Positions 3 to 16,903 of a stretch of DNA of 21,586 bases are shown piece after piece. Numbering within the stretch: position 1 is the stretch's first letter; every line of letters begins with the position of its first letter. The position numbers were made by a program, and so were the translations under genes. The notes under the pieces are model-generated. The model searched no databases and was not told the DNA's origin. It worked only from the letters and a program-made list of their open reading frames with translations. The stretch comes from a virus: positions 1-21,586 of IMG/VR virus record IMGVR_UViG_3300017986_002032; one strand, given 5' to 3'.

Positions 3-428
3 AATCCAGTTATATTAGATTGTGCGTATATAGGCAGCACAGCAAAAAAACAGATACAGATACCTAAAAACACAGAACAAGTATTTTTTAGTTTTAGTAA
101 AGGTTGGGGATTAGTTGGACAACGTATGGGTGTTGTTTTTACAAAGCATCCGCATAAAAGTCTACAACCGATGAAAAATGTTGAAGCATGGAACTATACA
201 GGAGTTGAAGTAGCTCATGCTATTCTAGACAACTTTGACGTAGATACTATCTATAATCTATATAAACCTATGCAAGATAGCATTTGTAAAGAAATTGGAT
301 TTACACCAAGTGACTGTTTCTTTATAGCAAATACTACAGACGACAAATGGAAATTGCGTCGACGCACAGGAAATATTGCAAGGATAGACTTGTCATATGC
401 AATGAATAAGGAAATAGGCAATGACTAA
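3..428 (+). CDS. PLP-dependent aminotransferase (class I/II), C-terminal part; 5' end outside window
   Basis: The reading frame is open from base 3, upstream of the first ATG at 126, so the gene begins before the window. The visible 141 residues carry the class I/II aminotransferase lysine region: a short hydrophobic strand followed by D-x-A-Y, then about 25 residues later SFSKGWGLVGQRMG, which matches the family pattern S-x-S-K-x-x-G-L-x-G-x-R-x-G. The lysine there would hold PLP as a Schiff base, and the arginine two residues before the final glycine normally contacts the cofactor phosphate. The family moves amino groups between an amino acid and a 2-oxo acid; the substrate cannot be told from this part. 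It ends 8 bases inside the next gene, so it is the first visible member of the + strand operon. The rest of the small domain is short (about 100 residues after the lysine), suggesting a compact enzyme. Confidence 0.8.
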   Translation, partial: NPVILDCAYIGSTAKKQIQIPKNTEQVFFSFSKGWGLVGQRMGVVFTKHPHKSLQPMKNVEAWNYTGVEVAHAILDNFDVDTIYNLYKPMQDSICKEIGFTPSDCFFIANTTDDKWKLRRRTGNIARIDLSYAMNKEIGND

Positions 429-1059
429 AATAGTAGGTATGGCATTTAGTTATAGTCCAAATAGTATGCAACGTAGAGGATTAGAACTACTTAATAATGT
501 AGTGCCATTTCACAAGATTTATACACTTGCTGATTTTGATATTCCGCTAGTTAAAACAAATTATCCAAACGGTGAAGCACCGGACAGTGTAAAGCGTTTT
601 GTTGAAGCAATGGAAGAAGCAGATGCATTAGTATTTGGCATTGCAGAGATGGTTGCACAACCTTGTGCAAGTTTTAAAAATGCTATGGAATGGTTGGTTA
701 TTGAAATAAACAGTGATGTTGACTTGTCACGTAGTTATTGTATTAGTCACAAGCCTATGGTAACTACAACTTTTACACCTGGACCACATGCTGGTGCTAG
801 ACATTGGGATGCAACTAACCAACTGCTATTTCAATTAAACTGCAAAGTAAAAGAAAACTATGTATTTAGAGATGCATGGGAAAACCTATTACCTAACAAT
901 GTTAGCTATATAGAGAATTCTGCAAATGATATGCTTAAATATCTTACAGAGTCATACATAGACGAAGGCATACAAGTACATGACAGAGTAAGAACTATGG
1001 GTGCATGGTTAGATTATTACGATGATTGGAATAACGCATGGAACACTTCAAAGAAATAG
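421..1059 (+). CDS. NADPH-dependent FMN reductase-like flavoprotein (copy 1)
   Basis: A 212-residue flavodoxin-fold protein. The N-terminus has a beta strand followed by FSYSPNS, in the place of the S-x-R-x-x-S loop that binds FMN phosphate. Residues about 66-91 contain an acidic-hydrophobic strand, then an E and the segment ASFKNAMEWL, the PF03358 hallmark (usually lKNaiDWl) near the isoalloxazine ring. The family reduces FMN, quinones or other small molecules with NAD(P)H. The C-terminus is rich in aromatic residues (YYDDWNNAW) and is shared with the paralogue at 7437-8069. An AAGGA ribosome binding site lies 8 bases before the ATG. Both flanking genes overlap it. In this operon it could supply reduced flavin or act directly on the pathway intermediate; the electron acceptor is unknown. 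Confidence 0.75.
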   Translation: MTKIVGMAFSYSPNSMQRRGLELLNNVVPFHKIYTLADFDIPLVKTNYPNGEAPDSVKRFVEAMEEADALVFGIAEMVAQPCASFKNAMEWLVIEINSDVDLSRSYCISHKPMVTTTFTPGPHAGARHWDATNQLLFQLNCKVKENYVFRDAWENLLPNNVSYIENSANDMLKYLTESYIDEGIQVHDRVRTMGAWLDYYDDWNNAWNTSKK

Positions 1060-1637
1060 ATTTTAACACCGACATATCTTTTTTCTATGAACTAGTGGAA
1101 CATATCAAAAATGACACTTCGTTTGATATGGATGAAAGTGTGTTTATGTGTTGGACAAAGGATAATCCTGTGTTTGAACAAATAAACAATTTTGTTGAAC
1201 GTATGGCAACAGTATTAGATTGTAAGTACAGTAGAAGTTGCTATACAGTACAAACAACTAAAGATAGTAACTTACCTGTACACATAGACAAAGACGACTC
1301 TTTAGTGGGTCATACAAGCGTACACAGCAACGTATACAGCTTGATAATACCTATTACAGGTAAAGCAAGCACTAGATTTTATCATCTGCACAGCAACGAT
1401 TTAGGGCCCGATACAACGGATGTAGATTACCGTTACGGATTGTATATCAATGATAAAAACATAGAAAACAAAATACATTGGATGTCGTCTATAACAATAA
1501 ACAAACCAACAGTGTTAAACATAAGTTATCCGCACAGTGTTAAAATGTTTCAAGCACCAAGAATAACTTATCATGTTAAACTACTTCAATGCAAACACAA
1601 TATTAGAGAGATCGGAAAACTATTAAGTGAGCTATAA
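1038..1637 (+). CDS. Fe(II)/2-oxoglutarate oxygenase-like protein, Asp/Asn beta-hydroxylase (cupin) type
   Basis: A 199-residue protein with the order of residues expected of a double-stranded beta-helix Fe(II)/2OG oxygenase. H82-x-D84 (VHIDKDD) is followed by a hydrophobic strand (SLIIPITG), a distal histidine in ISYPHSVKM (H166) and an arginine in APRITYHVKL (R175), which would bind the 2OG carboxylate. The 'YPHSV...PRI' arrangement matches the protein at 6051-6668 ('YPHAV...PRI'), so the two are probably distant paralogues. The substrate is unknown. The start overlaps the upstream gene by 22 bases and its end overlaps the next by 11. I place it in the Asp/Asn hydroxylase-like group by motif; a non-catalytic relative is possible. 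Confidence 0.6.
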   Translation: MEHFKEIDFNTDISFFYELVEHIKNDTSFDMDESVFMCWTKDNPVFEQINNFVERMATVLDCKYSRSCYTVQTTKDSNLPVHIDKDDSLVGHTSVHSNVYSLIIPITGKASTRFYHLHSNDLGPDTTDVDYRYGLYINDKNIENKIHWMSSITINKPTVLNISYPHSVKMFQAPRITYHVKLLQCKHNIREIGKLLSEL

Positions 1638-3162
1638 CTCTCTGCTACTAGCAGCAACACCGCGACAAAAATCATATTATGCTTCAAAGAACTTTGGAGT
1701 ACACAGAGTTGCGGCTGAGTTTAGAAGCAGAGATGTTGACACACAAGTTGTACATTACTTTAATAGATTTACAGATACAGAACTAAAAGACCTTGTAAAC
1801 AAGTATTGTAATGCTAACACAGTAGTCGTAGGATTTAATACAATGTTTTGGGAAAACTACGAAGACGGTGAAAAGGAATATGTTTTAGAAAAAGCAAAAA
1901 CAGTTGCAACTTATGTTAAAACAAATTTGCCACATGTAAAAGTTATTGTAGGTGGTCCTAGTTGCAGATTATTTTTAAAAGATGAGTTTGAAAATCTCAT
2001 AGATGCTATATTTGAAGGATTTAGTGAAAACGACTTTATCAAATACATAGAACATTTAAAAGGCAACGGATTATGTCCAATACCTAACAAGTCTTACAAT
2101 AGCATTGATGTTTACAACAATATATATGGCTCATTTGATTTTTCAACCAGTACTACGTTATACACAAAAAAAGATTGTTTGCACAGTACTGATGTACCTA
2201 CACTAGAAGTAGGTCGTGGTTGCATTTTTAAATGCAAGTTTTGTGCATTTGCACTTAATGGTAAAAAGAAGTTTGATTACATTAAAGATCCTGATATACT
2301 CAAACAAGAACTTATACACAACTACGAAAACTTTGGATTTACAAACTACATACTCAGCGATGACACATTTAATGACAGCACTTACAAAATAGAAATGCTG
2401 CATCGTGTGTTTACTAGTTTACCGTTTGATATTAAGTTTGCATCTTATCTAAGACTTGACCTGTTACGAGCACACCCTGAACAAATACCTTTGTTAAAAG
2501 AGATGGGTCTTGTAGGTGCATTTTTTGGTATCGAATCGTTTAACTATGAAAGTGCAAAATTAATAGGCAAAGGTTTAGATCCTGACATAGCAAAAGAAAT
2601 GTTGTTAGACTTAAAAGCAAACCGTTGGGGCAACAAAGTAAAAATAGGAGTAGGGCTTATTGTAGGGTTGCCTTATGAAGACTATAAATCTCATGAACGT
2701 ACACAAGAATGGATATTAGACGAAAACAACACAGTTGATCAAGTTATTCCGTTTCCGTTAGGAGTTACTAATCCAAATAATGTAAAACCACAGCCATGGG
2801 ACAGCGAGTTTCAAAAAAATGCAGACACTTATGGGTTCTATTGGCCTAACAACGATAGCATACGTTGGCACAATAGGATAGGACCAATAAAGTCGTTAGA
2901 CGAAGCAGAAAGAATATATGCCGACTATTCGGTAAATGTATCAAAATCTGCACGTTGGAAACAAGGAGGGTTTAACTTGTTAAAAGCATACCCTCTTATA
3001 AGTTCGCAAAAAGATGCTCCTAGTTTAGATCAGCTTCTTGAAATGAACAGATACCAGTACACTAAGTATATTAAACACGTAGAAAACAACACAGACCTTG
3101 AAACAAAATATGTAGAAGATTATAAAAAGGAAATATTATATGTTAACCAAACTAGAGAATAA
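1627..3162 (+). CDS. Radical SAM enzyme with N-terminal cobalamin-binding-like domain
   Basis: A 511-residue enzyme. Residues about 1-145 look like the Rossmann domain of B12-binding radical SAM proteins: repeated hydrophobic strands, VIVGGPS at about 106-112 and DAIFEGFSEND at about 126-136, matching the usual GGpH and GEgE strands. The classical DxHxxG lower-axial histidine motif is not seen, as in many base-off members. The radical SAM core starts at GRGCIFKCKFCAF, with the [4Fe-4S] cysteines C199, C203 and C206 (CxxxCxxC). Later, GVGLIVGLPYED resembles the SAM-supporting GxPGE-type strand. Members methylate unactivated carbons or do ring and thioether chemistry; the substrate is unknown. 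The start is GTG at 1627, because the next in-frame Met is about 70 residues in and would remove the domain. It is the longest gene of the cluster and probably its central enzyme. Confidence 0.85.
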   Translation: MSYNSLLLAATPRQKSYYASKNFGVHRVAAEFRSRDVDTQVVHYFNRFTDTELKDLVNKYCNANTVVVGFNTMFWENYEDGEKEYVLEKAKTVATYVKTNLPHVKVIVGGPSCRLFLKDEFENLIDAIFEGFSENDFIKYIEHLKGNGLCPIPNKSYNSIDVYNNIYGSFDFSTSTTLYTKKDCLHSTDVPTLEVGRGCIFKCKFCAFALNGKKKFDYIKDPDILKQELIHNYENFGFTNYILSDDTFNDSTYKIEMLHRVFTSLPFDIKFASYLRLDLLRAHPEQIPLLKEMGLVGAFFGIESFNYESAKLIGKGLDPDIAKEMLLDLKANRWGNKVKIGVGLIVGLPYEDYKSHERTQEWILDENNTVDQVIPFPLGVTNPNNVKPQPWDSEFQKNADTYGFYWPNNDSIRWHNRIGPIKSLDEAERIYADYSVNVSKSARWKQGGFNLLKAYPLISSQKDAPSLDQLLEMNRYQYTKYIKHVENNTDLETKYVEDYKKEILYVNQTRE

Positions 3163-3547
3163 TAAACCAGTTGATTACATCATTGATGAATCGAAACGGA
3201 TTATCCTTTGTGGTGTTCCTGGTGCATTTACTCCAGGCTGCACCAGTAGACACTTGCCAGGATTTATTGGCGGATTAGAAGAATTAAAAAACAAAGGCAT
3301 TGATAAAGTTGTGTTTGTTGCTACCAACGATGCATATGTTATGGATGCATGGAACACACACCACGGACACCCTGACATTGATTGTGTAAGTGATATGTTT
3401 GGCAACTATTGTGAAAGCATTGGAGAGTTATCGAAAGACCATTCATTTGGCATGAGATGCAATCGTTTTGCAGTATTAATAGAAGATGGTAAAATAGTAC
3501 GCAAGTTTGAAAATCCTTTTATTGAAGGTGTACTTGGAGAGCTTTAA
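3140..3547 (+). CDS. Peroxiredoxin (Prx5-like)
   Basis: A 135-residue thioredoxin-fold peroxidase. GVPGAFTPGCTSRHLPGF (residues 25-42) is close to the Prx5 active site PGAFTPxCSxxHLPGF, with peroxidatic Cys34, the activating Thr31, and an arginine at about 107-109 (GMRCNRFAVLIEDGK) in the expected place. It would reduce hydrogen or organic peroxides; C24, C82, C91 and C108 are candidate partners for the resolving disulfide. It lacks roughly the first 20 residues of usual Prx5 proteins. The ATG follows AAGGA by 8 bases and overlaps the radical SAM gene by 23. Its position next to oxygen-sensitive iron enzymes suggests peroxide protection of the cluster, but a catalytic role on a pathway peroxide cannot be excluded. 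Confidence 0.85.
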   Translation: MLTKLENNKPVDYIIDESKRIILCGVPGAFTPGCTSRHLPGFIGGLEELKNKGIDKVVFVATNDAYVMDAWNTHHGHPDIDCVSDMFGNYCESIGELSKDHSFGMRCNRFAVLIEDGKIVRKFENPFIEGVLGEL

Positions 3548-4398
3548 TGGAACCATTTAAAACAACACACTCTAACTATAGACGAGTTTTAAACAGCAAA
3601 GAACCGTTGTATCACTATAATATTGAAGATTATATTGCAAGAGAAAATCCTGAGCATCCTGAGCATAAAAACTTGAACTATCACAGTGAGTACACCGGTT
3701 ATAGAGGTGTTGTATGGACGCCATTAGATTTGCCATTTTTAGAAATAGACTTAGACCATGTATGGAATGTGTGGCAAGAAGTAAGACACGAAAAGCGTGA
3801 AGGACTTGCACAACCTTGGTTTGATGAACGTCCTGATGATATGAATAGTTCACGCCATAGTGCATATTCTGATCATGATTACAGAGGATTCTTGTTATTT
3901 AAAAATACTGATTATTATAACATGGATACACCTGGCGAATGGTATGATATTGTACAGCAAGAATTTCCACAAGTAAAAGAGTTTTGTGAAGCATTGCCTT
4001 TTGATAATATGCGTTTTATTGCATTTGCCGGACGTGACGATCACGGTGTAGGTCCGCATTACGATGAAGATCCTGCAAACAGAGCAAGACTTGCTCCACA
4101 AGAACCTAGCCAGATAAGAATACGTTGGAGCAACGTCACAACACCTGAAAAAGAACATTTGTACTTTACAAAGGATCATGGAGCAACACGCATCTATCCT
4201 ATACTGCCAGCAGATACAAACACTATGGCATGGGATGGACAAGTACACGAACACGGTGCCGACCGTGGATTTCATCCTAAGGACAGACTTATACTCATGC
4301 CTATGGGTACATTAAATGTTAAGAAGTGGCATGAACTGCTAGAACGCAGTATAAACAAATACAAAGATTATGTTATTACAGTAGATCATTTAAAATGA
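3547..4398 (+). CDS. Putative Fe(II)/2OG oxygenase, cupin (Asp/Asn hydroxylase-like) type
   Basis: A 283-residue protein. The C-terminal half has an HxD at H171-D173 (GPHYDEDP), a strand with alternating hydrophobic and basic residues (QIRIRWSNVT), a second strand leading to AWDGQVHEHGADRGFHPKDR (distal histidine H234 or H236), then an arginine (R240 or R247) and a strand LILMPMG. That order fits a jelly-roll Fe(II)/2OG oxygenase. The N-terminal about 110 residues are rich in His, Asp and aromatic residues and have no domain I recognise. It is joined to the peroxiredoxin gene by a one-base stop/start overlap (TAATG) and to the next gene by ATGA. The substrate is unknown. Confidence in the fold is moderate because the metal site is inferred from spacing alone. 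Confidence 0.5.
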   Translation: MEPFKTTHSNYRRVLNSKEPLYHYNIEDYIARENPEHPEHKNLNYHSEYTGYRGVVWTPLDLPFLEIDLDHVWNVWQEVRHEKREGLAQPWFDERPDDMNSSRHSAYSDHDYRGFLLFKNTDYYNMDTPGEWYDIVQQEFPQVKEFCEALPFDNMRFIAFAGRDDHGVGPHYDEDPANRARLAPQEPSQIRIRWSNVTTPEKEHLYFTKDHGATRIYPILPADTNTMAWDGQVHEHGADRGFHPKDRLILMPMGTLNVKKWHELLERSINKYKDYVITVDHLK

Positions 4399-5336
4399 AA
4401 TACCAAGGAAAAAAGTTAAGTCAAATAGATCCTGTTGAAGCAAGTTGTGCAACTGCTGAACACGGTTGGATCGTTATTGAAGGTAGTAATGCATCTCCTG
4501 AAGAGTTTGCAGAATGGTATTTAGATACATTTTATACACTAAGTCCAGATATTTGGTGTAGTGACACAACACACAGTAATTTATTTTGGAGAGTAACAAA
4601 CGATTTAGTCGATGATAAAAATAAAGGACTTTTTGCTAACGACGATGTTGACTGGCATTCAGATCTTATACCTGAGATAGATTCTCAAGAAGTTGTTGGT
4701 TTATATGCTAAAACTATAACTTATCATACAGAAACATGGATATGTTCTTCGACAAAATATTGGAAAAGTTTATCAACTGAAATACAAGACTGGCTACGTA
4801 GTTTAGAAGTAGAAATATTAAACAAAGGCAGTAATAACAAAACTCCATTTTTAAAACCAGACGAAAGTCAGTGGGAACGTGGCGACTGGGACAATCAATA
4901 CACTGAAACAGTTGTTAATGGTATAAGAAAAAATAGACAACTAAGTCAAATCAAAAATTCTTCAAATATCAGTGATGTTGATTCTAAAAAATTTAAAGAA
5001 CATAGAGGAGTAGTTACACAACATAAGTTAGTAACTAATCATCCATTAGAAGTACCTGGTGTATTTTTTCCTCCATATGAAATTGTAAACTTTTACAAAG
5101 ATAACAATGTAATAGAAAATGCAGAAAATTTATACCAAATGATATACAATGACTTGGTACTTAGCGGTAAGTATACATATAAGCACGTATGGAAACCGGG
5201 TGATATATTACTAATGGATCAAGTTAATACAATACACAGAAGAACTAAAGTATTAGATAACAAATCTAGAGAACTACTACGTGCAGCAGGGTGGTACAAA
5301 TCAAATGTTAGGAGACACTTTGATTATGTATTATGA
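4395..5336 (+). CDS. TauD/TfdA-family Fe(II)/2OG dioxygenase (copy 1)
   Basis: A 313-residue protein. The Fe(II) triad is visible: H88-x-D90 in DVDWHSDL and the distal H281 in LLMDQVNTIHRR, with the 2OG-binding arginine at R292 or R296 (SRELLRAAGWYK). The preceding HVWKPGDILLMDQ strand is typical of TauD-like enzymes. The family hydroxylates, desaturates, or cleaves small substrates such as taurine and amino acid derivatives, releasing succinate and CO2. An insert of about 60 polar residues (about 145-205) is less conserved-looking. It starts in an ATGA overlap with the upstream gene. The C-terminal end of its reading frame covers the start of the SGNH gene by 11 bases. Compare the related gene at 6643-7440, which has the same C-terminal 'D-Q-x-x-T-x-H-R-R-T' signature. 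Confidence 0.85.
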   Translation: MKYQGKKLSQIDPVEASCATAEHGWIVIEGSNASPEEFAEWYLDTFYTLSPDIWCSDTTHSNLFWRVTNDLVDDKNKGLFANDDVDWHSDLIPEIDSQEVVGLYAKTITYHTETWICSSTKYWKSLSTEIQDWLRSLEVEILNKGSNNKTPFLKPDESQWERGDWDNQYTETVVNGIRKNRQLSQIKNSSNISDVDSKKFKEHRGVVTQHKLVTNHPLEVPGVFFPPYEIVNFYKDNNVIENAENLYQMIYNDLVLSGKYTYKHVWKPGDILLMDQVNTIHRRTKVLDNKSRELLRAAGWYKSNVRRHFDYVL

Positions 5337-6054
5337 TATAATATATACAAATGGAGATAGCTTTGTTGCTGGTAATGGTTTAGCACAAGAAGAATACACC
5401 AAAGATAACTTGTATACGTTTGATGATTGGCAGCGTAACTATAATAAGGTATTTAATAAAAAAACTTTAGAAAAAGTACATAAGTTACATTTGTCAGGAT
5501 ATCTTACCAACAAAGAAAAACAAAATGCTTGGCCAAGTACGCTAGAAAAAATAACAAATATTAAAACAATAAATGAAGCATATCATTCACAGTCTGCTAC
5601 AACTATTGCTATGAAGTCAATACAATCGTTAAGCAAGATAAAAGATAAAAAGATACTAGCATTAATAGGAACAGCACCGTTTGCAAGACTATGGTTTCCA
5701 AAAGCAGGTACAAATAGCATACAATTAAGTGTATTTGGAGGACGTCCAACTGAATTAGAAAACAATATTGCTAAGTATTATGTAAACAATGCAAAGTTTG
5801 AAGATTTTAAGGCTCAGTACGAAATTAGTTTTTTAGGTTTAAAAAAGTTTGCTGAAAAAAATAATATAGATTTGTATTTTATTAACCATTATTTAAGCGA
5901 ACACAGTGATTTAATAAATGAATACGTAATTGATACTATTGGTAACGATGCTGATCACACATTGCCTGTTTTTACAGCATGTGGACATTATCCAAAAAAA
6001 TATCATGATAGTCTTGCATACAGATTAAAACAAAAGTTTGAGGAAATACAATGA
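5326..6054 (+). CDS. SGNH/GDSL-type hydrolase-like protein
   Basis: A 242-residue protein. The N-terminus reads IIYTNGDSFVAGNGL, a first beta strand followed by the GDS block of SGNH hydrolases (nucleophile Ser12). A second block (NEAYHSQSATTIAMKSI) sits where the Gly/Asn oxyanion blocks usually lie. The C-terminus has ACGHYPKKYHDSLAYRL, like the 'H-P-x-x-x-G-H-x-x-x-A' catalytic histidine region (H221 or H227). Such enzymes remove acyl groups from sugars, lipids or small esters. I chose ATG 5326 because AGGAG lies 11 bases upstream (5310-5314); a GTG at 5281 is in frame but deeper inside the upstream gene. Its place in the operon suggests deacylation of, or acyl transfer to, the cluster product, or an unrelated surface substrate. 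Confidence 0.65.
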   Translation: MYYDIIYTNGDSFVAGNGLAQEEYTKDNLYTFDDWQRNYNKVFNKKTLEKVHKLHLSGYLTNKEKQNAWPSTLEKITNIKTINEAYHSQSATTIAMKSIQSLSKIKDKKILALIGTAPFARLWFPKAGTNSIQLSVFGGRPTELENNIAKYYVNNAKFEDFKAQYEISFLGLKKFAEKNNIDLYFINHYLSEHSDLINEYVIDTIGNDADHTLPVFTACGHYPKKYHDSLAYRLKQKFEEIQ

Positions 6055-6668
6055 AAAAACAAAACTTACCGACTGTAGCTAATTTTAAATTGTCTATTGA
6101 TTTAGACAAGTTACGTGCTGCTACTGACAAACTTGCAGAAAAGTTTGTTGATGTTCGCACTGCTAATCCAATGTTATGTGATAACCATATGGAGTTAGTA
6201 AAAAGTGTGTACGACAATTTTGAGCAGATTAACTTAACTACTCCTAGTGAAATACTACCGTATGAAGCAAGTATCAAAGAACGACTAAAGCGTAGAGAAG
6301 AACATTTGTATAATGTTCCTACTGAAGATTACACAGGAAGTATTTTTGAAGAAATAGTTACACAACTAAAAGCAACAGCAAGCCGTGTGCGTATTACAAA
6401 ACTAGCACCTGGTAAAATAATTCCATTTCATGTTGATTATGATGTAAGTTATGCAGTACGTTGTATTTGTCCTATTTACGGCGGATCTAATGTTGTAAAC
6501 TTGTTTAAAAGAGATGGTAAACTAGAAGCATACAATCTAGAAGATGGTAATGCGTATTTTCTTAATATCGGTTATCCACATGCAGTAGTTAACATGAGCG
6601 ATCAACCACGTATAGCACTAATGTTTAGTTTGGACGGAACAGATGACATCACAAATTTACAACTTTAA
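6051..6668 (+). CDS. Aspartyl/asparaginyl beta-hydroxylase-like Fe(II)/2OG oxygenase
   Basis: A 205-residue protein with the clearest Asp/Asn beta-hydroxylase (PF05118-like) pattern in the window. A helical N-terminal third is followed by VRITKLAPGKIIPFHVDYD (H127-x-D129), a strand with VRCICPIYGG, then a strand ending in LNIGYPHAVVNMSDQPRIALMFSL, with the distal metal ligand H177 and the 2OG-binding R187. The family hydroxylates Asp/Asn side chains in proteins, but bacterial and phage relatives act on free amino acids or unknown small molecules. The start overlaps the SGNH gene in an ATGA junction; an AGGAAA ribosome binding site precedes it. It resembles the 1038-1637 product in its C-terminal half, which suggests an ancient duplication within the cluster. 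Confidence 0.8.
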   Translation: MKKQNLPTVANFKLSIDLDKLRAATDKLAEKFVDVRTANPMLCDNHMELVKSVYDNFEQINLTTPSEILPYEASIKERLKRREEHLYNVPTEDYTGSIFEEIVTQLKATASRVRITKLAPGKIIPFHVDYDVSYAVRCICPIYGGSNVVNLFKRDGKLEAYNLEDGNAYFLNIGYPHAVVNMSDQPRIALMFSLDGTDDITNLQL

Positions 6669-7440
6669 TGATCAAGAACTAAAAGATCTAGCAGTAAAAA
6701 TCCAGACCAAAGGGTTAAGTATACATCACGATCAACAGTTAAACGAAGATCAGATTGTAGAATTTTTTAAGCGTATTGGTGAATGCGAAGCACCTGGTCT
6801 GTTTATGAACTTACCTGATCATCCTGAAATATTTTTAGTAACAGACAGACGTGACGATTCTGGTAAAAAAGTTGGTATGTTTGGTGGCGGCGAGTTAGGT
6901 TGGCACTCAAACGGAAATAGTAGACACCTTATAGACAAGATTGTTATCGGTTTGTATTGTATTAAAGGAGATCCTAACACTACTTTGAGTATTTGTAATA
7001 CTAGCGATCCTTTTTATGATTTATCCGAAGAAGAGCAAGAATATTGGAAAAGTATCACTATACGTTTAAAGTTTAAAAATGATACAATGTATCATTTAGA
7101 TGAAGACGATCCTGAACTTGAGTTTATGAGTCAAAACAAAGGCAGTATACGTCCGTTAGTAGGAACGCATCCGCATACAGGAAAATATTATTTTTACTTT
7201 CCTTATCATTTTATTAGCAAAGCATGGCAAGGCAAAACAGTTATTGACCACGAGGAAATGATAGAAAAACTCAAACCTATTATTTTTAAATCACGCTATC
7301 AGCATCATCATGTATTTGCAGAGGGTGACTTACTTATAATGGATCAGTTTACTACATTGCATAGACGTACACCTGTAATGGGCGATAGATTACTATGGCG
7401 GTTAGCATGTGATTACAAAAATATTATGAGTGAAGAATGA
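6643..7440 (+). CDS. TauD/TfdA-family dioxygenase-like protein with HxN metal motif (copy 2)
   Basis: A 265-residue protein with TauD layout: a short helical N-terminus, strand IFLVTDR, the motif GGELGWHSNGNS (H88-S89-N90), and the C-terminal HHHVFAEGDLLIMDQFTTLHRRT with distal H240, followed by arginines R249 and R253 for 2OG. The first motif reads HxN rather than HxD; the codon at 6910-6912 is AAC. In known Fe(II)/2OG enzymes this position is Asp or Glu, or Ala/Gly in halogenases where chloride fills the site. It may therefore be a modified oxygenase, one with altered chemistry, or a degenerate copy. The overall sequence is otherwise well preserved, arguing against a pseudogene. It overlaps the upstream gene by 26 bases and the next by 4. 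Confidence 0.75.
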   Translation: MTSQIYNFNDQELKDLAVKIQTKGLSIHHDQQLNEDQIVEFFKRIGECEAPGLFMNLPDHPEIFLVTDRRDDSGKKVGMFGGGELGWHSNGNSRHLIDKIVIGLYCIKGDPNTTLSICNTSDPFYDLSEEEQEYWKSITIRLKFKNDTMYHLDEDDPELEFMSQNKGSIRPLVGTHPHTGKYYFYFPYHFISKAWQGKTVIDHEEMIEKLKPIIFKSRYQHHHVFAEGDLLIMDQFTTLHRRTPVMGDRLLWRLACDYKNIMSEE

Positions 7441-8069
7441 TTACAGGAATAAGTTTTAGTTACGCAGAAAACAGTTTACAAACTAGAGGACTTTACTTAT
7501 TACAAGACATTGCAGGCATTAATACAGTTTCAGATATGAGACAGTTTGATATGCCTATTTGCAATTCTAACAAGAGTGATGGTGTGGTTCCAGAATCAGT
7601 TGAAGAATTTGTAAAAACACTTGCAGAATCGGACATACTGGTATTTGCTATTAGTGAAGCAACTAGTCATTACAGTGCAGGATTTAAAAATGCAATGGAT
7701 TGGTTAGTTGTTAAAAGCAAGTTTAATGCTAGATTAGGTACTGACTATGCAATTACAGATAAACCTATATTTGTAGTTACATTTACGCCAACTAAAAAGA
7801 ATGAAGCAAACAACGGAGGCAGACACTTTGATATGACTGTTGAATTGCTTGAAAAATTAGGTGCAAATGTTGTACATACAGAAGTAATACATGATGCATG
7901 GCATACTATTGTACCGGGTAACTATGATCCTGTAAATAACTTATCTAAAGAAATATTGCATTTTTCTAAAGCATATAAGCCTATAATAAAAGAATCAATT
8001 GAAGATACAGGAAGTCCTGGCTGGTTAGATTTATACAACGAATGGGATTCTAAATGGAAAAACAAATAG
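7437..8069 (+). CDS. NADPH-dependent FMN reductase-like flavoprotein (copy 2)
   Basis: A 210-residue flavodoxin-fold protein, paralogous along its whole length to the 421-1059 product. It shares the GxxFSYxxNS phosphate loop at the N-terminus, the strand DILVFAISEA, the segment AGFKNAMDWL near residues 81-90 (PF03358 hallmark), the strand PIFVVTFTPT, a G-x-R-H-F/W-D motif (GGRHFDMT, against GARHWDAT) and a tryptophan-rich end (LDLYNEWDSKW). The GxRHxD motif is not a general family feature that I recall and may mark a substrate or partner site common to this pair. It starts in an ATGA overlap. Two divergent copies within one operon suggest two steps needing separate flavin reductants, or a heteromeric enzyme. 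Confidence 0.75.
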   Translation: MITGISFSYAENSLQTRGLYLLQDIAGINTVSDMRQFDMPICNSNKSDGVVPESVEEFVKTLAESDILVFAISEATSHYSAGFKNAMDWLVVKSKFNARLGTDYAITDKPIFVVTFTPTKKNEANNGGRHFDMTVELLEKLGANVVHTEVIHDAWHTIVPGNYDPVNNLSKEILHFSKAYKPIIKESIEDTGSPGWLDLYNEWDSKWKNK

Positions 8070-8761
8070 TTGACGAAGCAAAATACAATCTAGCACCTGT
8101 TAACAGAAAAGACGGTATGCCGTGGCCACGTTGGCACACAGAGCCTCCTAAAGAGTTTGCTAAAGTTCCATTAAAGGAAGAATACGCATTGCGTACTATG
8201 GATTACTTAGACACTCCAGAAGCTCGTCCTATATTTGATTTACAAGCAGATATTATTATTAAAAACAATATAAAAGGCATTGTTGATGTAGGATGTCGTA
8301 TTGGAATTATCAATGACATTTTGCACGATCGTGGATACACTGATTATAGATACATGGGGTTTGATACTAGTAACGAACCTATACGTTATGCAACAGAAGT
8401 ATGGCAACAGTTTCCAAACATAGAATATCGTTGTGCTAGTATGTATAACAAAAACGACATAACAGTAGATTTTGATGTAGATTGTGTTATTTGGAGTGGA
8501 ATATTATTATATAATCCAGATAATCATTTAGAACTGTTCCACAATTTAACTTTTGATTTCTATAATGCATCACATGCTATTATACAAGAACCTTGTGCAG
8601 AACAAGATCCAAACAAGTTTTTAGAAAATGTTGAACTTAACACTATTGAACAAGATATGTACAAATACAAGGAAAGATACCCAATGTACAAAGATTGGGT
8701 AGTTGATACTAATATTTTTTCAGGACGTAGACGGATTGCACATATATGCTTAGATCAATAA
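8054..8761 (+). CDS. Class I SAM-dependent methyltransferase-like protein
   Basis: A 235-residue protein. Motif I is GIVDVGCRIGIINDIL (V77-G84 region), where the usual G-x-G-x-G reads G-C-R-I-G. It is followed by strand RYMGFDTSNEPI, whose acidic residue D104 would bind the ribose of SAM, then DVDCVIWSGILLYNPD as the motif IV/V strand. The fold assignment is good; the acceptor is not visible. An N-terminal stretch of about 70 residues rich in Pro, Trp and Lys (GMPWPRWHTEPP) precedes the core. It starts 16 bases inside the flavoprotein gene and overlaps the next gene by 16. It may methylate the product made by the oxygenases, or may be the tailoring enzyme that ends the pathway. Confidence 0.7.
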   Translation: MEKQIVDEAKYNLAPVNRKDGMPWPRWHTEPPKEFAKVPLKEEYALRTMDYLDTPEARPIFDLQADIIIKNNIKGIVDVGCRIGIINDILHDRGYTDYRYMGFDTSNEPIRYATEVWQQFPNIEYRCASMYNKNDITVDFDVDCVIWSGILLYNPDNHLELFHNLTFDFYNASHAIIQEPCAEQDPNKFLENVELNTIEQDMYKYKERYPMYKDWVVDTNIFSGRRRIAHICLDQ

Positions 8762-9345
8762 ACATAAATGATAAGTTTAAAATTATTCCTTATATTTTTG
8801 ATGGCAAAGAAAATGCTTCGTTAACCGATGACGAATTAAAAATATGTCGTAACAGCATTAAGTTAATGGCAGAAGATTCTGTACATGATCGTCTAGCCGA
8901 CAATTATTCAAAATGGTTAAAACTTGAATCAATGTACATTTATAGTCTGCTATGGGATATTGAGTACTGCCGTCCTGTGATGTTTAGTGGAGCACAACCA
9001 GTTACAGAAAATTGTTGTAGATTGTTTAGCAGATATTATTTGTTTACCGATTATCGCACTGAACACACAAAGAACTTGTATGATAAAGTTGACGACTTTG
9101 AAGTAGACAAATTTCACTTAGAACACGCTGGCAAAAAATATCCATTTATTTTCTGGAGTAGAGACCGTGGTCCTAGTTTTTTCTACAGAATTAAAAATGC
9201 AAGACCTGATGTATTTGGCGAGTGGGAAATATATCCTTACACTGTGGATATATTATGGAGAGATAATTATCAAGGTATTATGTATACCGGACCTGGCAAG
9301 GAAGATTACGAAAAATATATAGACGAATTATTGTTTGACAAATAA
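8746..9345 (+). CDS. Unrecognised protein, last gene of the + strand operon
   Basis: I do not recognise a family with confidence. The 199-residue protein is soluble, acidic and aromatic-rich, with no signal peptide or membrane segment. Features that stand out: an early helix pair, the central segment MFSGAQPVTENCCRLFSRYY, a Lys/Asp-rich stretch, then FIFWSRDRGPSFFYRIKNA and a Trp/Tyr-rich C-terminus. The central 'S-G-x-Q-x-x-x-x-x-x-x-R-x-x-S-R-Y-Y' layout and the alternating strands faintly recall GNAT-type acyltransferases, but the acetyl-CoA loop is not evident, so this is only a suggestion. It overlaps the methyltransferase gene by 16 bases. Its last 18 bases overlap the end of the desaturase gene on the other strand; no terminator hairpin separates them. 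Confidence 0.6.
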   Translation: MLRSININDKFKIIPYIFDGKENASLTDDELKICRNSIKLMAEDSVHDRLADNYSKWLKLESMYIYSLLWDIEYCRPVMFSGAQPVTENCCRLFSRYYLFTDYRTEHTKNLYDKVDDFEVDKFHLEHAGKKYPFIFWSRDRGPSFFYRIKNARPDVFGEWEIYPYTVDILWRDNYQGIMYTGPGKEDYEKYIDELLFDK

Positions 9346-9966
9346 CTTTTCAGCTAGCCACCCGCCGGTGTCCCATTTGTGTAGTCGTATGCGTTTTGAA
9401 TCGTCGTGATGTTCTTTATGATAACCTTCGCCTGCAATAAACAAATTCAGCCATGGAACATTAGCACCGCCTTCTGTTTTATGTCCTACAGTATTAAGTA
9501 AACCAAAACCTACTTTAGCAAAAATAAACGGAACCAATGCAAATCCTACAAAAAAGTATGGACTAATTATAAAACTAACAATCCAGTTTGCTGCCCAAAT
9601 ATGTTTCCAGTATTTGTGAAAAAATACTAGACGTGGGTTAGCATATAAATCTTTTGCATATTTTGGAGGAATGTTTGGAATATCCCAAGTGGTTAGCAGC
9701 ACTTTCCAAAATCCTACATGTTTAGCAGCATGTGGATCTTCTGGACCATCACTGTGATGATGATGCATTCTGTGACTAGAAATCCAACCAATAGGAGTTC
9801 GAATGACGGCAACCATAAGCATATATAAGCCTACCCATTCAAACCAAACAGGAACTTTGAATTGTTTATGACAATAATGTCTGTGCAATAGAATACTTGC
9901 ACCAATGTGATAAATTATTTGACTCCATACAAGTCCTAAAAATATTGCAATAAATAATTCGGTCAT
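9328..9966 (-). CDS. Membrane fatty-acid (acyl) desaturase, delta-9 type
   Basis: A 212-residue integral membrane di-iron desaturase with all three histidine boxes: H28-RHYC-H33 (HX4H), H65-RM-H68-H69 (HX2HH) and H183-KE-H186-H187 (HX2HH), plus the LLNTVGHKTEG segment typical of stearoyl-CoA/acyl-lipid desaturases. Hydrophobic stretches at about 2-25, 40-58, 125-158 would span the membrane. It would insert a double bond in host acyl chains using O2 and an electron carrier not encoded here. It is shorter than usual bacterial versions (roughly 270-300) but the catalytic boxes are complete. I start at ATG 9966, with AGGAG 5 bases upstream; the in-frame ATG at 9996 lies upstream of the late promoter and is unlikely. 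The gene is alone in its orientation with respect to the + operon and adjoins late structural genes. Confidence 0.93.
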   Translation of the reverse strand: MTELFIAIFLGLVWSQIIYHIGASILLHRHYCHKQFKVPVWFEWVGLYMLMVAVIRTPIGWISSHRMHHHHSDGPEDPHAAKHVGFWKVLLTTWDIPNIPPKYAKDLYANPRLVFFHKYWKHIWAANWIVSFIISPYFFVGFALVPFIFAKVGFGLLNTVGHKTEGGANVPWLNLFIAGEGYHKEHHDDSKRIRLHKWDTGGWLAEKLFVKQ

Positions 9967-9980
9967 GTGATCTCCTACTG

Positions 9981-9988
9981 TATTTATA
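9981..9988 (-). promoter_or_regulatory. T4-type late promoter (TATAAATA) for the desaturase
   Basis: The minus strand reads TATAAATA exactly, the octamer recognised by the T4 gp55 late sigma factor. It lies 14 bases upstream of the desaturase start codon, so transcription would begin very near the ribosome binding site and give a very short leader. It indicates late expression of the desaturase, separate from the + strand operon. Confidence 0.7.
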
Positions 9989-10019
9989 ATATACAATAAT
10001 TATAGAAATCAGTCAAGGA

Positions 10020-10988: not shown

Positions 10989-13046
10989 TCATTGGCCCCT
11001 ATCGAGTCTATTAACATAATTAATCTGTATGCCTCTTAATGTAACACCGTTTTTAAAGTCATTTGTTCTTATAGGAAATGTAGTTTGTTCGTATGGAGCG
11101 TCATATAAAATAATAGGATCACTGCCTGCAAGATTTGTTGTAGTTAACCATCCAGAATCTGTAGCACTATCCCAATCGCTGTTTTGTCCACCAAATTCGC
11201 TTGTTGATTGTTGTTCTAAGTTAGTCTTAATATGATTTCTAACATCAGCATATGTCCAATCTCTGTTAAATTGTAATAGCGTAGCAAGATAACCACATGC
11301 AACAGGACATGCTGCACTAGTACCATTAAAGTAAGTATCCTGAGCACCAGTGGCTTCAATGGTCATTCCTGGGTATGTGTTATCATATCTGTTTAAAATA
11401 CTAGTACTATCGTTAGGTGATGCCGCTGCTATAGTACCGTCTGCTACTGCATAACAATCAATTGCAGGACCACAGTCGCTATAATATGCTTTATTTTCTT
11501 GCGAGCCAATCGGTGATCCGTCACTCCAGTCGTCATCCAATGCACCAATGTTTATTACTTTGAATTCTGTTCCTGTATCACCTAAACACTGCGGAAATCC
11601 TGGTCTGTTTGTTGTAGCATATGCACTAAAATATCCACCTAACTCTGTCCAAGTAGTTTGATCCCAAGTTGCACCTGTTGTTGAATTGTGGAAGTTATTG
11701 TAGTTAGGATGTCCTGGTAGTGTTTGTTGTTGACTATCGTTACCTGCTGCACCAACAAAAATAACACCACTATCAACCATTTCGTTGCCTGCTGTTAAGT
11801 AACTGTTTGGCTTTGGATAATGTTTCATACGTCCGTCGCCGTTGGTAGTTACAACACGCATAATAGCAGGAGCATCAGCTGTTCTACTTGTGTACGAAAT
11901 ATCTGTACCTCTGTGATTGTAATAACCGCTGCTTCTTGGACTAACACGGAACCCCCAACTATTAGAACTTATAGTAGGATCTTTTGTGCCGTATACTGGG
12001 TTAACTGGTTTATACGTATGAAATATTTTCATAACATCGAAATATTCTTCAAACCAAATACCGATGCTACTATAAACGTCAATAACCCATTTATTAGCAT
12101 TATATGCCCATCCGTGTGTTCTACCAAATGTTAAACTAGCACATTGAGTACCGTGTGTACCGTCATATGGTGCAACAGTTGGCGAACCGTGTGCTCTGTC
12201 TCTTGTATAGTTTGTAGTAATAATAATGCCGCCGAAGTTAGGAAAAGTTGCACTGCGTCCTGCTGCACTTGCCCACCATGCTCTAGCTGCTGCTTCGGTA
12301 GGTACAACAGTACCATCCCAACGTGTTTCTAATCTGCCTGCTGCATCTGCATCAAACCATTCTGGATCTAAATAATACGGTCCATCAAAAACCATATCTA
12401 ATACATTACAAGTACTATCGCTTGTGTTGCTATCACGTTGACTCAATACATTTCCTGCAACAAAATCTTGTGGGTAAACAGCATTTGTAACGCCCATCAT
12501 AAATTCTGGGTGTCCGATCCACGAACCGTTGTCACCTACAATAACATCAACATGACGTGCATTACCTCTTTGTTTAGGTAATGCGTCAATCACAGTACTG
12601 TTGCTTGAACCTGCCCATGGTGTTGTTTTTTGTGTCATACGCCATAGTTGACTAGACGCTCTGTTTAACTCCGTTACTGTTGGAGAACTAGGATTTTGTC
12701 CTGAATATTGCATATAGTTTCTAACTGTGCCGCTACTATATCTGTTTAGTGCATCCGGTATGTCACAACGTAAATCATCAGGTGAAATACGTGGCATTTC
12801 GTCTGTGTCTAAGTTATGTACGACACTCAGTTCTACATACTCAATTTCAGTACGACTGCGTAAATTATTTGCTTCGTTGTCAGTTAAAAGAAAAGTACCT
12901 CTTGTAGGACTATGAAGTTTGTCGTCTACACATTCAACACATCTATCTGGAATATTTTCATAACTAGTGTCGGTTGTTAATAAATCGTGGATTGTTGTAA
13001 AATCTTCGGAAGTTTTTGTTCCTATGCTATAATACTTTTCAGTCAT
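10989..13046 (-). CDS. Subtilisin-family (S8) serine protease, probably virion-associated
   Basis: A 685-residue protease with an intact catalytic set: D172 in VIVGDNG, H298 in YDGTHGTQCA, oxyanion N436 in GVIFVGAAGND, and the nucleophile S577 in NGTSAACPVACGYLA, in subtilase order. About 90 N-terminal residues (FLLTDNEANNLRSRTEIEYVEL) look like an inhibitor-I9-type propeptide ending in the V-E-Y-V-E pattern. No secretion signal or membrane segment is visible, so it probably reaches its target in the particle or works inside the cell. A tail of about 90 residues follows the catalytic serine. It lies between two fibre-like genes, AAGGA is 7 bases before the ATG, and the gap to the upstream gene is 9 bases. 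It may mature fibres, or cut host surface proteins at adsorption. Confidence 0.92.
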   Translation of the reverse strand: MTEKYYSIGTKTSEDFTTIHDLLTTDTSYENIPDRCVECVDDKLHSPTRGTFLLTDNEANNLRSRTEIEYVELSVVHNLDTDEMPRISPDDLRCDIPDALNRYSSGTVRNYMQYSGQNPSSPTVTELNRASSQLWRMTQKTTPWAGSSNSTVIDALPKQRGNARHVDVIVGDNGSWIGHPEFMMGVTNAVYPQDFVAGNVLSQRDSNTSDSTCNVLDMVFDGPYYLDPEWFDADAAGRLETRWDGTVVPTEAAARAWWASAAGRSATFPNFGGIIITTNYTRDRAHGSPTVAPYDGTHGTQCASLTFGRTHGWAYNANKWVIDVYSSIGIWFEEYFDVMKIFHTYKPVNPVYGTKDPTISSNSWGFRVSPRSSGYYNHRGTDISYTSRTADAPAIMRVVTTNGDGRMKHYPKPNSYLTAGNEMVDSGVIFVGAAGNDSQQQTLPGHPNYNNFHNSTTGATWDQTTWTELGGYFSAYATTNRPGFPQCLGDTGTEFKVINIGALDDDWSDGSPIGSQENKAYYSDCGPAIDCYAVADGTIAAASPNDSTSILNRYDNTYPGMTIEATGAQDTYFNGTSAACPVACGYLATLLQFNRDWTYADVRNHIKTNLEQQSTSEFGGQNSDWDSATDSGWLTTTNLAGSDPIILYDAPYEQTTFPIRTNDFKNGVTLRGIQINYVNRLDRGQ

Positions 13047-15227: not shown

Positions 15228-15506
15228 TTAATTATATTTCAAATATGGACAGGCCAAAGTAAAATAACTCAACTCTTTGGCTGTTTCAAACCCTACAGTG
15301 TATCCAACTGTAATATTGTTATCGCTATCTAACTCGACATTATTACCAAAAAAATATCGACCTGTTAATTTAGATTCAATCCAACTGCAAATAGCCTGTT
15401 CCATATTGTAGTGTTTTTTTAATGTAACAGTTTCAAAATGGGGAGGGCAAAAACTCACCCTCCTCATGTTTAGTACAGTTAATGGATTAGGATCTTTTAA
15501 TTTCAC
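15228..15506 (-). CDS. Small conserved hypothetical protein
   Basis: A 92-residue protein with no recognised family. It has three cysteines and a strand-rich second half (YFFGNNVELDSDNNITVGYT). The start is GTG at 15506, within the GTGA stop/start overlap with the VWA-metallopeptidase gene (GAGG is 7 bases upstream), so it is translationally coupled to it and may work with it. 41 bases separate it from the next gene downstream. Confidence 0.7.
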   Translation of the reverse strand: MKLKDPNPLTVLNMRRVSFCPPHFETVTLKKHYNMEQAICSWIESKLTGRYFFGNNVELDSDNNITVGYTVGFETAKELSYFTLACPYLKYN

Positions 15507-16789
15507 GCCGCATCCTCATAATGGGCTGTAACACCAAAAGGACCTTCCAAGTTACGATCGTGGTTGCTGTGGATAATAAACACTGTATCACAGTATTCTG
15601 GATCGCCCCAGCTATCCCAAGCATAACCATCAGTGAACATAATGAACTTCTTAGGTTGGATGTCATTGTCCTTCATGTATTTCCAGTTCACCATAAAGTC
15701 GGTGCCACCACCACCCATGATTTCGTATTCACTTAGATCTTCACCGCCATCAGCACTGAAGTCTTGTTCGTTATACACTTTAGTATCAAAGCACCAAACT
15801 TTGATTTTGTAGTCTTTGTATTCTTCCATGATGCCTTTGATCTCGCCAAGGAAGTCAGCAGCCTGATCGTTACCAATACTACCGCTCATATCCAAACTAA
15901 CACAAATGTCAATGGTATCTTGGAAATTCATACCTGGCAAGATAGCACCACTGTGCCAGCCTTTGCGGCTAGGACGCGACCAAGTGTAGTCACTTTTGAT
16001 AGTGCTCTGAATCTGTTGACGAAGCAGCTCACGCCAATTCATCTTAGGTTCAGTCATTTCCTTGATCATACGTGCTACACCAGCAGGAACGTTGCCTGCA
16101 CCAGCTGTTTGTGCAGCGTTAATCATTGCTTCTTTGATCTCATCTTTGATTTGATCAAGTTCTTCTTTGGTGTAACGCGGACGACCTTTACCTTTACCTT
16201 TACCATCACCTTCTTCTTCGCCGTCACCTTCCATATCAAGGTGCTCGTCTAGCATTTCGCCTAGTTGCTGTAAATATTCTTCACCGTTCTTTTTTGCTTC
16301 TTTGAACAGTTCGTCATATACTTCTTCACTAGTCCAGCCACGGTATTTGAAGTCTTGGTAGCAATCTACAATTTTAGGCTTCTTACCAATGCGACCGTCT
16401 ACCAGTTCGTTGTTAACAATGTAGTCAGCAGCAATGTTATACAGCATAGGATTACGATCATCACGTCGGCCTAGGTGGTCGTATACCATGTGATAAATTT
16501 CGTGTGCAATAACAAACTCAATTTCTTTATTGTCCATTGCATTAAAAAATTGAGTGTTAAAGTATAGTTTACGCCCATCTACTGCGGCAGTCATTAGCCA
16601 GTCGTCAGCAGCTTCAATCTTAAGACGAGTAGCCATGTTACCAAAGAAAGGATGACGTAGCAACAACCCAACACGAGCAGTAACAATGCGGTCGTATACT
16701 TCTGCTTGCATTGCTTCTAATGCAGCACCTACGATAGTGGGGTCAGGTTCCCAATGCTTGAGTTTGCTTTGTGTGTTTTTAGCGGACAT
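15503..16789 (-). CDS. VWA-domain/putative metallopeptidase protein, partner of MoxR ATPase
   Basis: A 428-residue protein. The N-terminal half has a zinc peptidase-like motif, HEIYH (H96-E97-x-x-H100, HExxH). An acidic/Gly/Lys-rich linker (about 185-205) follows. The C-terminal half is a von Willebrand A domain: MIDAS DMSGS (D300-S304), GGGGTDF (T363) and FTDGYA (D387). This arrangement matches the DUF2201-type VWA-like/metallopeptidase proteins that pair with MoxR ATPases for metal-dependent assembly or remodelling. I start at ATG 16789 (AGAGG upstream, downstream of the mapped promoter); an earlier in-frame ATG at 16849 would precede the predicted transcription start. The MoxR gene lies immediately upstream but each has its own promoter. 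Confidence 0.85.
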   Translation of the reverse strand: MSAKNTQSKLKHWEPDPTIVGAALEAMQAEVYDRIVTARVGLLLRHPFFGNMATRLKIEAADDWLMTAAVDGRKLYFNTQFFNAMDNKEIEFVIAHEIYHMVYDHLGRRDDRNPMLYNIAADYIVNNELVDGRIGKKPKIVDCYQDFKYRGWTSEEVYDELFKEAKKNGEEYLQQLGEMLDEHLDMEGDGEEEGDGKGKGKGRPRYTKEELDQIKDEIKEAMINAAQTAGAGNVPAGVARMIKEMTEPKMNWRELLRQQIQSTIKSDYTWSRPSRKGWHSGAILPGMNFQDTIDICVSLDMSGSIGNDQAADFLGEIKGIMEEYKDYKIKVWCFDTKVYNEQDFSADGGEDLSEYEIMGGGGTDFMVNWKYMKDNDIQPKKFIMFTDGYAWDSWGDPEYCDTVFIIHSNHDRNLEGPFGVTAHYEDAA

Positions 16790-16806
16790 TTCGTACCTCT
16801 TTTGTT

Positions 16807-16849
16807 CAGTGCCTATACTATATAATAACATATTTACAATATAAGTCAA
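16807..16849 (-). promoter_or_regulatory. Sigma70-like promoter plus shared leader box for the VWA gene
   Basis: On the minus strand: -35 TTGACT (16844-16849), a 16-base spacer, -10 TATTAT (16822-16827) and then the box GTATAGGCACTG (16807-16818). The same box follows the promoter of the MoxR gene. Both promoters look like host-RNA-polymerase (early) types, and the gene start at 16789 sits just downstream. The identical box near the predicted transcription start is unlikely by chance. Confidence 0.65.
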
Positions 16850-16850
16850 C

Positions 16851-16890
16851 CAAATAATAGAAAAAGTGAGCGAGTTTCCTCGCCCACTTT
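16851..16890 (-). terminator. Rho-independent terminator with GAAA tetraloop, after the MoxR gene
   Basis: On the minus strand a 12-pair stem (one G-U) made by 16863-16874 and 16879-16890 closes a GAAA loop (GNRA class), followed by a T-rich run TTTCTATTATTT. It ends the MoxR transcript 14 bases after its stop codon and lies directly against the -35 box of the VWA promoter (16844-16849), so the two transcription units are separated. Confidence 0.85.
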
Positions 16891-16903
16891 GTTACAACTC
16901 ACA

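Follow-up and report, generated by a model that had tools for sequence, protein, structure and literature searches.

The window analysed here is the whole of the virus record IMGVR_UViG_3300017986_002032 from IMG/VR, a fragment of 21,586 bases. According to the listing of its open reading frames (ORFs), bases 3-9345 are tiled by 13 ORFs on the + strand (Table 1), the first of which is cut by the contig end. At all 12 junctions neighbouring ORFs overlap, by 1-26 nt, and the block therefore reads as one operon. An earlier reading, made from the sequence alone, had proposed a block of 13 enzyme genes on one strand. This layout was borne out, and nearly all active sites that can be read are intact. 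The interval was, however, drawn too narrowly: the convergent desaturase gene, which the sequence-only reading left out, is part of the functional unit.

Table 1. Genes of the cassette and the adjoining desaturase gene in the window. PLP, pyridoxal phosphate; FMN, flavin mononucleotide; 2OG, 2-oxoglutarate; SAM, S-adenosylmethionine; core, member of the four-gene core described in the text.
Product	Position	Strand	Basis and remarks
PLP aminotransferase, C-terminal 141 aa, core	3-428	+	PLP lysine at 99-101; gene cut by contig end
Flavodoxin-like FMN reductase 1 (FMN_red)	421-1059	+	Pfam 1.7e-13; paralogue of 7437-8069
2OG oxygenase-like, HxD...H...R, accessory	1038-1637	+	motif; aligned with Mos76 family
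Class B-like radical SAM enzyme, accessory	1627-3162	+	Pfam 6.7e-14; CIFKCKFC present
Peroxiredoxin, PxxxTxxC and Arg	3140-3547	+	Pfam Redoxin 2e-20; phrog_2281 3.2e-25
2OG oxygenase-like, HYD...H...R (3547-type)	3547-4398	+	motif; in most loci alternative to flavoprotein module
TauD-like oxygenase 1 (TauD1), H-S-D at 4656-4664	4395-5336	+	Pfam 9.9e-18
SGNH-like hydrolase, optional cargo	5326-6054	+	GDS motif alone
AspH-like 2OG oxygenase (PF05118, Asp_Arg_Hydrox), core	6051-6668	+	Pfam 2.1e-6
TauD-like oxygenase 2 (TauD2), H-S-N at 6904-6912, core	6643-7440	+	Pfam 7.8e-19
Flavodoxin-like FMN reductase 2	7437-8069	+	Pfam 6e-12
SAM methyltransferase, core	8054-8761	+	Pfam Methyltransf_25 5.5e-5, under curated cut-off
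GNAT-fold acyltransferase	8746-9345	+	AlphaFold pLDDT 92; VIA-align Z 10.2
DesC-like fatty acyl desaturase, three His boxes, convergent	9328-9996	-	Pfam 5.2e-9

Most of the enzyme names given earlier held in Pfam and PHROG searches. The two TauD, the two FMN_red, the radical SAM and the Redoxin assignments were all confirmed by Pfam, whereas the names are weak for the methyltransferase, the SGNH hydrolase and the B12-binding domain of the radical SAM protein (0.043, below the cut-off). Among the three proteins previously called cupin-type 2OG oxygenases, the AspH-like one was confirmed; the products of 1038-1637 and 3547-4398 gave no Pfam match and were assigned by motif. Catalytic residues are conserved in the respective families: the PLP-binding Lys in 76/78 and the Asp in 77/78 relatives of the aminotransferase, HxD, H and R in 86/86 AspH-like proteins, HxD and H in 37/37 members of the Mos76 family (including 1038-1637), HxD...H in 39/39 members of the 3547-type profile family, the peroxiredoxin Cys in 30/30 and the motif Asp of the methyltransferase in 69/69 relatives. 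The active sites of the core are thus conserved, apart from a uniform Asn in the TauD-like family.

Two assignments were extended by structure prediction. A full-length homologue of the aminotransferase (L001:7972-8805) was modelled by AlphaFold with a pLDDT of 94 and matched class I aminotransferases in the PDB with a Z of 20 over 261 residues; judged by modelled fold, Lys and Asp, it and the 3-428 gene are predicted to be fold-type I PLP aminotransferases. The product of 8746-9345, which the sequence-only reading had listed as unrecognised, was modelled from 26 aligned sequences, and the top matches of Foldseek and VIA-align were all GNAT acyltransferases (best Z 10.2, rmsd 3.5, 156 residues). 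According to this model the protein has a GNAT fold, and binding and transfer of acyl-CoA are predicted.

TauD2, the flavoprotein and the aminotransferase served as queries against IMG/VR; collapsing at 92% nucleotide identity reduced the 274 loci to 135 clusters. A core consisting of aminotransferase, TauD-like, methyltransferase and AspH-like genes was found in 58 non-redundant loci, all collected through scans with core genes; it lies on one strand in 57 of them and has a median span of 5.0 kb. In the 42 loci anchored by TauD2 (labels stem from iterated profiles, and counts for "TauD2" and "3547-type" take in paralogues), 39 contain the aminotransferase, 41 the methyltransferase, 41 AspH and 40 the desaturase. 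The aminotransferase-anchored loci (33) contain TauD2 in 28, AspH in 26 and the methyltransferase in 22 cases; for the flavoprotein (26 loci) the corresponding values are 26, 24 and 25, with an aminotransferase in 23. These independent anchors agree on the core, which supports a single pathway.

The radical SAM protein behaves differently. Its 301 relatives in virus contigs mostly occur without the core, and the 48 non-redundant loci anchored by it contain an aminotransferase in 3, TauD2 in 2 and a methyltransferase in 1 case. Compared to these loci, the association of the core genes is highly significant (Fisher p 4e-17 to 2e-23), and the radical SAM protein was ruled out as an anchor of the pathway. 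A viral scan with the 3547 oxygenase yielded 3 loci only, from a shallow alignment. The SGNH gene is likewise dispensable: an independent contig of a sister strain (L095), 97.2-99.5% identical, lacks window positions 5340-6000 and thus most of this gene, the remainder being intact. Homologues of the core are found together in many virus loci and not scattered singly. The proposal of a coherent, co-inherited, phage-borne pathway therefore stands, but not with all 13 genes as a single set; radical SAM and SGNH proteins are not core, and the 13 genes are a core plus passengers.

Around the core, the cassette is modular. Two GNAT types never share a core locus (0/58; p = 1.3e-6); the type found in phage Mosig occurs in 26 loci, the 8746-9345 type in 18, and 14 have neither. 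Such mutual exclusion is expected if both do one job. Flavoprotein and 3547-type oxygenase are also alternatives, occurring together in 5 loci and singly in 31 and 18 (p = 6e-7); the window and its relatives G001 and G002 hold both. The flavoprotein is usually accompanied by a Mos76 oxygenase and often by a peroxiredoxin. A desaturase gene is located near the core in 48/58 loci, on the strand of the core in 44/58, and adjoins the aminotransferase or AspH gene in 41/58. A pathway with interchangeable steps fits both the exclusive GNATs and the flavoprotein/3547 alternatives. Selection on the cassette is purifying, with a pooled dN/dS of about 0.1 (0.0026/0.023 for the window versus its sister strain, with few changes, and 0.0103/0.127 for G002 versus G001).

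Searching with the radical SAM protein of the window retrieved G001 and G002, in which this protein is 72% identical; they belong to another virus lineage and carry the entire block with its gene order preserved. Their proteins are 35-85% identical to those of the window, and an additional cupin-like gene lies between TauD2 and the second flavoprotein. In G003, the block is present in scattered form. Among 50,697 phage records, the AspH-like, first flavoprotein, TauD2, methyltransferase and L001 aminotransferase genes each had a sole match, Pelagibacter phage Mosig EXVC030M; no match to the radical SAM protein or the 3547 oxygenase was found in these records. Mosig_00072-00081 form a reduced cassette of AspH, GNAT, methylase, TauD, cupin, peroxiredoxin, FMN reductase, aminotransferase, desaturase and a second AspH. 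The identities to the window are 72% for AspH, 66% for TauD, 49% for the methyltransferase, 53% for the peroxiredoxin, 47% for the FMN reductase, 36% for the aminotransferase and 77% for the desaturase. Judged from this match, the window likely stems from a T4-like phage of SAR11-type bacteria. A variable region of Mosig (L094:9651-14736; MT647606 39650-44735) further contains genes for a heme oxygenase, a bilin reductase, a ferrochelatase and four more 2OG oxygenases; heme-derived iron may be linked to the iron enzymes there.

The uniform Asn of TauD2 concerns its iron site. H-S-N replaces the H-T-D of TauD, and the Asn is present in 97/97 alignable relatives. When a wider clade (n=124) was aligned against E. 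coli TauD from MG1655, the equivalents of His99 and His255 were invariant (124/124), and the position of the third ligand contained Asn in 120, Asp in 3 and Ala in 1 sequence; the TauD2 of the window thus lacks the carboxylate. The three Asp cases are the TauD1 proteins of the window, of the sister strain and of the G001 lineage. Their branch is nested among Asn sequences in the tree, and a reversion to Asp is the simplest reading. In TauD, Arg266 and Arg270 bind 2OG and substrate (PMC7949033). The equivalent of Arg270 (Arg253 in TauD2) is conserved in 124/124 sequences, and Arg249, four residues earlier, was assigned to Arg266 by the R-x3-R spacing only, the automatic alignment being gapped there.

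The closest solved structure of TauD2 is ScoE, an isonitrile-forming enzyme (8e-9). Membership in the ScoE isonitrile synthases was rejected, since NF049937 yielded 24.1 bits versus a curated cut-off of 400 and the triad contains Asn instead of Asp; the similarity was kept as a lead. To our knowledge, no natural 2-His-1-Asn member of the TauD family has been described, and neither the His-x-Asn triad nor the gene set was found in the literature searched, whose coverage was partial and included few subscription journals. It is conceivable, if doubtful, that this clade catalyzes the key step of an unrecognised, phage-centred pathway shared with Bdellovibrionota, by a chemistry new to the fold such as a halogenation-like or non-hydroxylating oxidation. 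A natural Asn in a TauD-type iron site would bear on how the ligand steers oxygenase versus halogenase-like outcomes. Another TauD relative, G239:C9:1582-2430 (L310), has an H-x-A iron site, which is the pattern of Fe/2OG halogenases, and is a candidate for chlorination assays.

Outside viruses, a pattern scan for the TauD-like gene in 84,980 prokaryote genomes, which was not exhaustive, gave two loci. One of them (L288) lies in a Paceibacter bin on a phage-like contig of 8.6 kb, and was excluded because this contig is probably phage DNA that was binned wrongly. The other, G004:C101, is a Bacteriovoracaceae contig of 118 kb with chorismate-pathway (aro) genes read from sequence. It contains a run of AspH, TauD2 (His-x-Asn), FMN reductase, Mos76, methyltransferase and GNAT genes, with TauD1 and cupins nearby; its aminotransferase adjoins two desaturases and an acyl carrier protein (ACP). 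A profile search detected related TauD genes in 6/369 Bdellovibrionota genomes, partly metagenome assemblies, including contigs of 349 kb (with tuf) and 505 kb. Compared to the phage cassette, the clusters on G004:C101, G078:C34 and G206:C8 additionally hold ACP, an AsnB-like PP-loop protein and membrane proteins, and those of G078 and G206 are devoid of the methyltransferase. No phage structural genes were noticed around the chromosomal clusters. Phage and bacterial copies are interleaved in the TauD tree, and a transfer between them is therefore likely; a wider occurrence of the cassette in bacteria is possible. Four small proteins adjoin TauD genes of the His-x-Asn type (G078:C34:153237-153635 and 160430-161017, G206:C8:230177-230767, G239:C9:253-708). 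Three of the four have a twin-arginine-like signal, and they could be exported partners or substrates.

In G002, the block is located between structural-looking genes and tail-fibre/VWA/AAA genes; that of Mosig adjoins tail fibres. Pfam detected no nucleotide-sugar enzymes or glycosyltransferases in 3-9345, and the block does not qualify as an LPS/O-antigen sugar cluster; related phages have such genes at other places in their islands. A PADLOC check gave no more than a weak match to the radical SAM protein, and a defence system was discarded. The window also contains a subtilisin-like protease (10989-13046; phrog_9158, 2.8e-75) flanked by two tail-fibre-like genes with a common N-terminus; at this place G002 has one tail-fibre-like gene of 586 aa and no protease. 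A VWA-domain gene paired with a MoxR-type AAA gene is found at 15503-17986, the VWA protein matching jumbo Pseudomonas phages best (46-47% identity). At 19688-20401, a PP-loop ATPase gene (QueC/ExsB-like by eye) overlaps a 5'-exonuclease-like gene, and the G003 island has a distant copy. In G002, about a dozen radical SAM genes (twitch/SPASM-like) lie nearly back to back at 44655-65000 (L084, L085), interspersed with GT-like, SGNH-like and methyltransferase-like genes, and a single ORF of 4,998 aa is situated amid structural-looking genes at 15968-30964 (L082, L083).

That the cassette constitutes a pathway is well supported, and the operon very probably makes or decorates a small molecule. 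We tentatively consider it, at somewhat less than an even chance, a modular mobile biosynthetic operon in the tail-fibre island of T4-like marine phages, the most likely use of which is to provide an acyl-amino group for a host surface glycan or lipid or for the virion. The PLP enzyme would transfer an amino group onto a keto or aldehyde precursor, and the GNAT would acylate the resulting amine, perhaps using a chain on which the desaturase had acted. Oxidation of C-H bonds would fall to the His-x-Asn TauD-like and AspH-like enzymes, together with the flavoprotein/peroxiredoxin/2OG module or the alternative 2OG enzyme; the methyltransferase would cap the product and the peroxiredoxin remove peroxide. 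While infection proceeds, the unusual group would be attached to the host surface or the virion, not to DNA, and might serve, for instance, to block superinfection. Glycan or lipid are the first choice because of the acyl hints (desaturase, ACP), and the target is deduced from the gene neighbourhood, the tail-fibre island of pelagimyophages being the proposed seat of genes that modify surfaces (PMC7029224). The modification of virion or surface proposed by the sequence-only reading thus remains plausible, given the tail-fibre/host-recognition island, but its proposal of nucleic acid modification gained no support from the families matched. Several points weigh against the acyl-amino reading. 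Product and target are deduced, and the sequence of the steps is conjectural; the block is devoid of a glycosyltransferase; the His-x-Asn site of TauD2 might be inactive; and islands of this kind gather unrelated cargo, too.

The amine, acyl and oxidation genes would also suit a free metabolite, such as a metal chelator, a signal or a toxin to competitors, in which TauD2 would form the metal-binding group. The match of TauD2 to ScoE and the ACP of the Bdellovibrionota chromosomal copy point in this direction. However, TauD2 contains Asn instead of the Asp of ScoE, falls far below the family cut-off, and has an R-x3-R pair, whereas ScoE lacks the first Arg (PMC7949033). As the block is also devoid of a non-ribosomal peptide synthetase, ligase, thioesterase and exporter, we regard a free molecule as unlikely. 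Remodelling of membrane lipids, for example formation of an aminolipid by desaturation, LpxO/OlsC-type hydroxylation by the AspH-like enzyme, GNAT acylation and head-group methylation, is distinctly improbable. The PF05118 family takes in the lipid hydroxylases LpxO and OlsC, the desaturase accompanies the core in most loci, and ACP occurs in one bacterial cluster; yet obvious membrane segments are confined to the desaturase, the family of which also occurs without the core (82/135 locus clusters).

Enzymes of the AspH family and GNATs are able to act on proteins, and the block adjoins tail-fibre genes, as expected if proteins of tail fibres or baseplate were hydroxylated, acetylated and methylated post-translationally. 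Neither a PLP aminotransferase nor an acyl desaturase fits this explanation well, and the same holds for bacterial chromosomal clusters with no phage structural genes noticed nearby; we consider it quite improbable. Very improbable is the absence of any single pathway, be the genes chance cargo or agents of DNA modification. The region is hypervariable (PMC7029224), and the radical SAM and SGNH genes, as well as some of the 2OG genes, are variably present, but co-occurrence, order and strand of the core and the exclusivity of the modules already make chance unlikely. DNA modification was rejected, the block containing no supporting gene: no base-hydroxylating synthase, kinase or DNA glycosyltransferase was found among the Pfam/PHROG matches of the cassette.

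The usual view of metabolic genes in phages is that each was borrowed individually from a host. In the present case, dozens of diverse viruses share a conserved operon of several enzymes, whereas the pattern scan for its TauD-like gene gave only two hits in 84,980 prokaryote genomes, one of them the phage-like contig; the clusters on some Bdellovibrionota chromosomes are more distant. Variable metabolic-gene islands of marine T4-like phages were already known, and the Mosig genes had been deposited; in the literature searched, we found no description of the operon as a recurring unit or of its modularity, nor of the GNAT nature of the 8746-9345 product, the His-x-Asn clade or the link to Bdellovibrionota. 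With Mosig and Ca. Pelagibacter HTCC1062, a cultured phage-host pair is available in which the product can be tested directly, the host belonging to a bacterial group that ranks among the most abundant in the ocean.

With respect to known systems, ScoE and TauD share with TauD2 the fold family, two His ligands and a putative substrate Arg, but their third ligand is Asp instead of Asn. The island resembles the pelagimyophage host recognition cluster (HRC), a large, variable island of T4-like SAR11 phages with tail fibres and radical SAM cassettes, which lies between VrlC and the neck gene gp14 (PMC7029224); neither of these two genes was identified in the window. The glycosyltransferases of the HRC have been proposed to alter the host O-chain, whereas the window block has none, and the main text of that study does not contain the cassette (PMC7029224). 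The closest counterpart is Mosig (MT647606), a cultured T4-like SAR11 phage, whose announcement does not present the cassette as a pathway (PMC7892664). It lacks a radical SAM protein of the 1627-3162 type, the SGNH hydrolase and the 3547-type oxygenase, and has a single flavoprotein and the other GNAT type. Nevertheless, it contains the same core, and its TauD is likewise of the His-x-Asn type.

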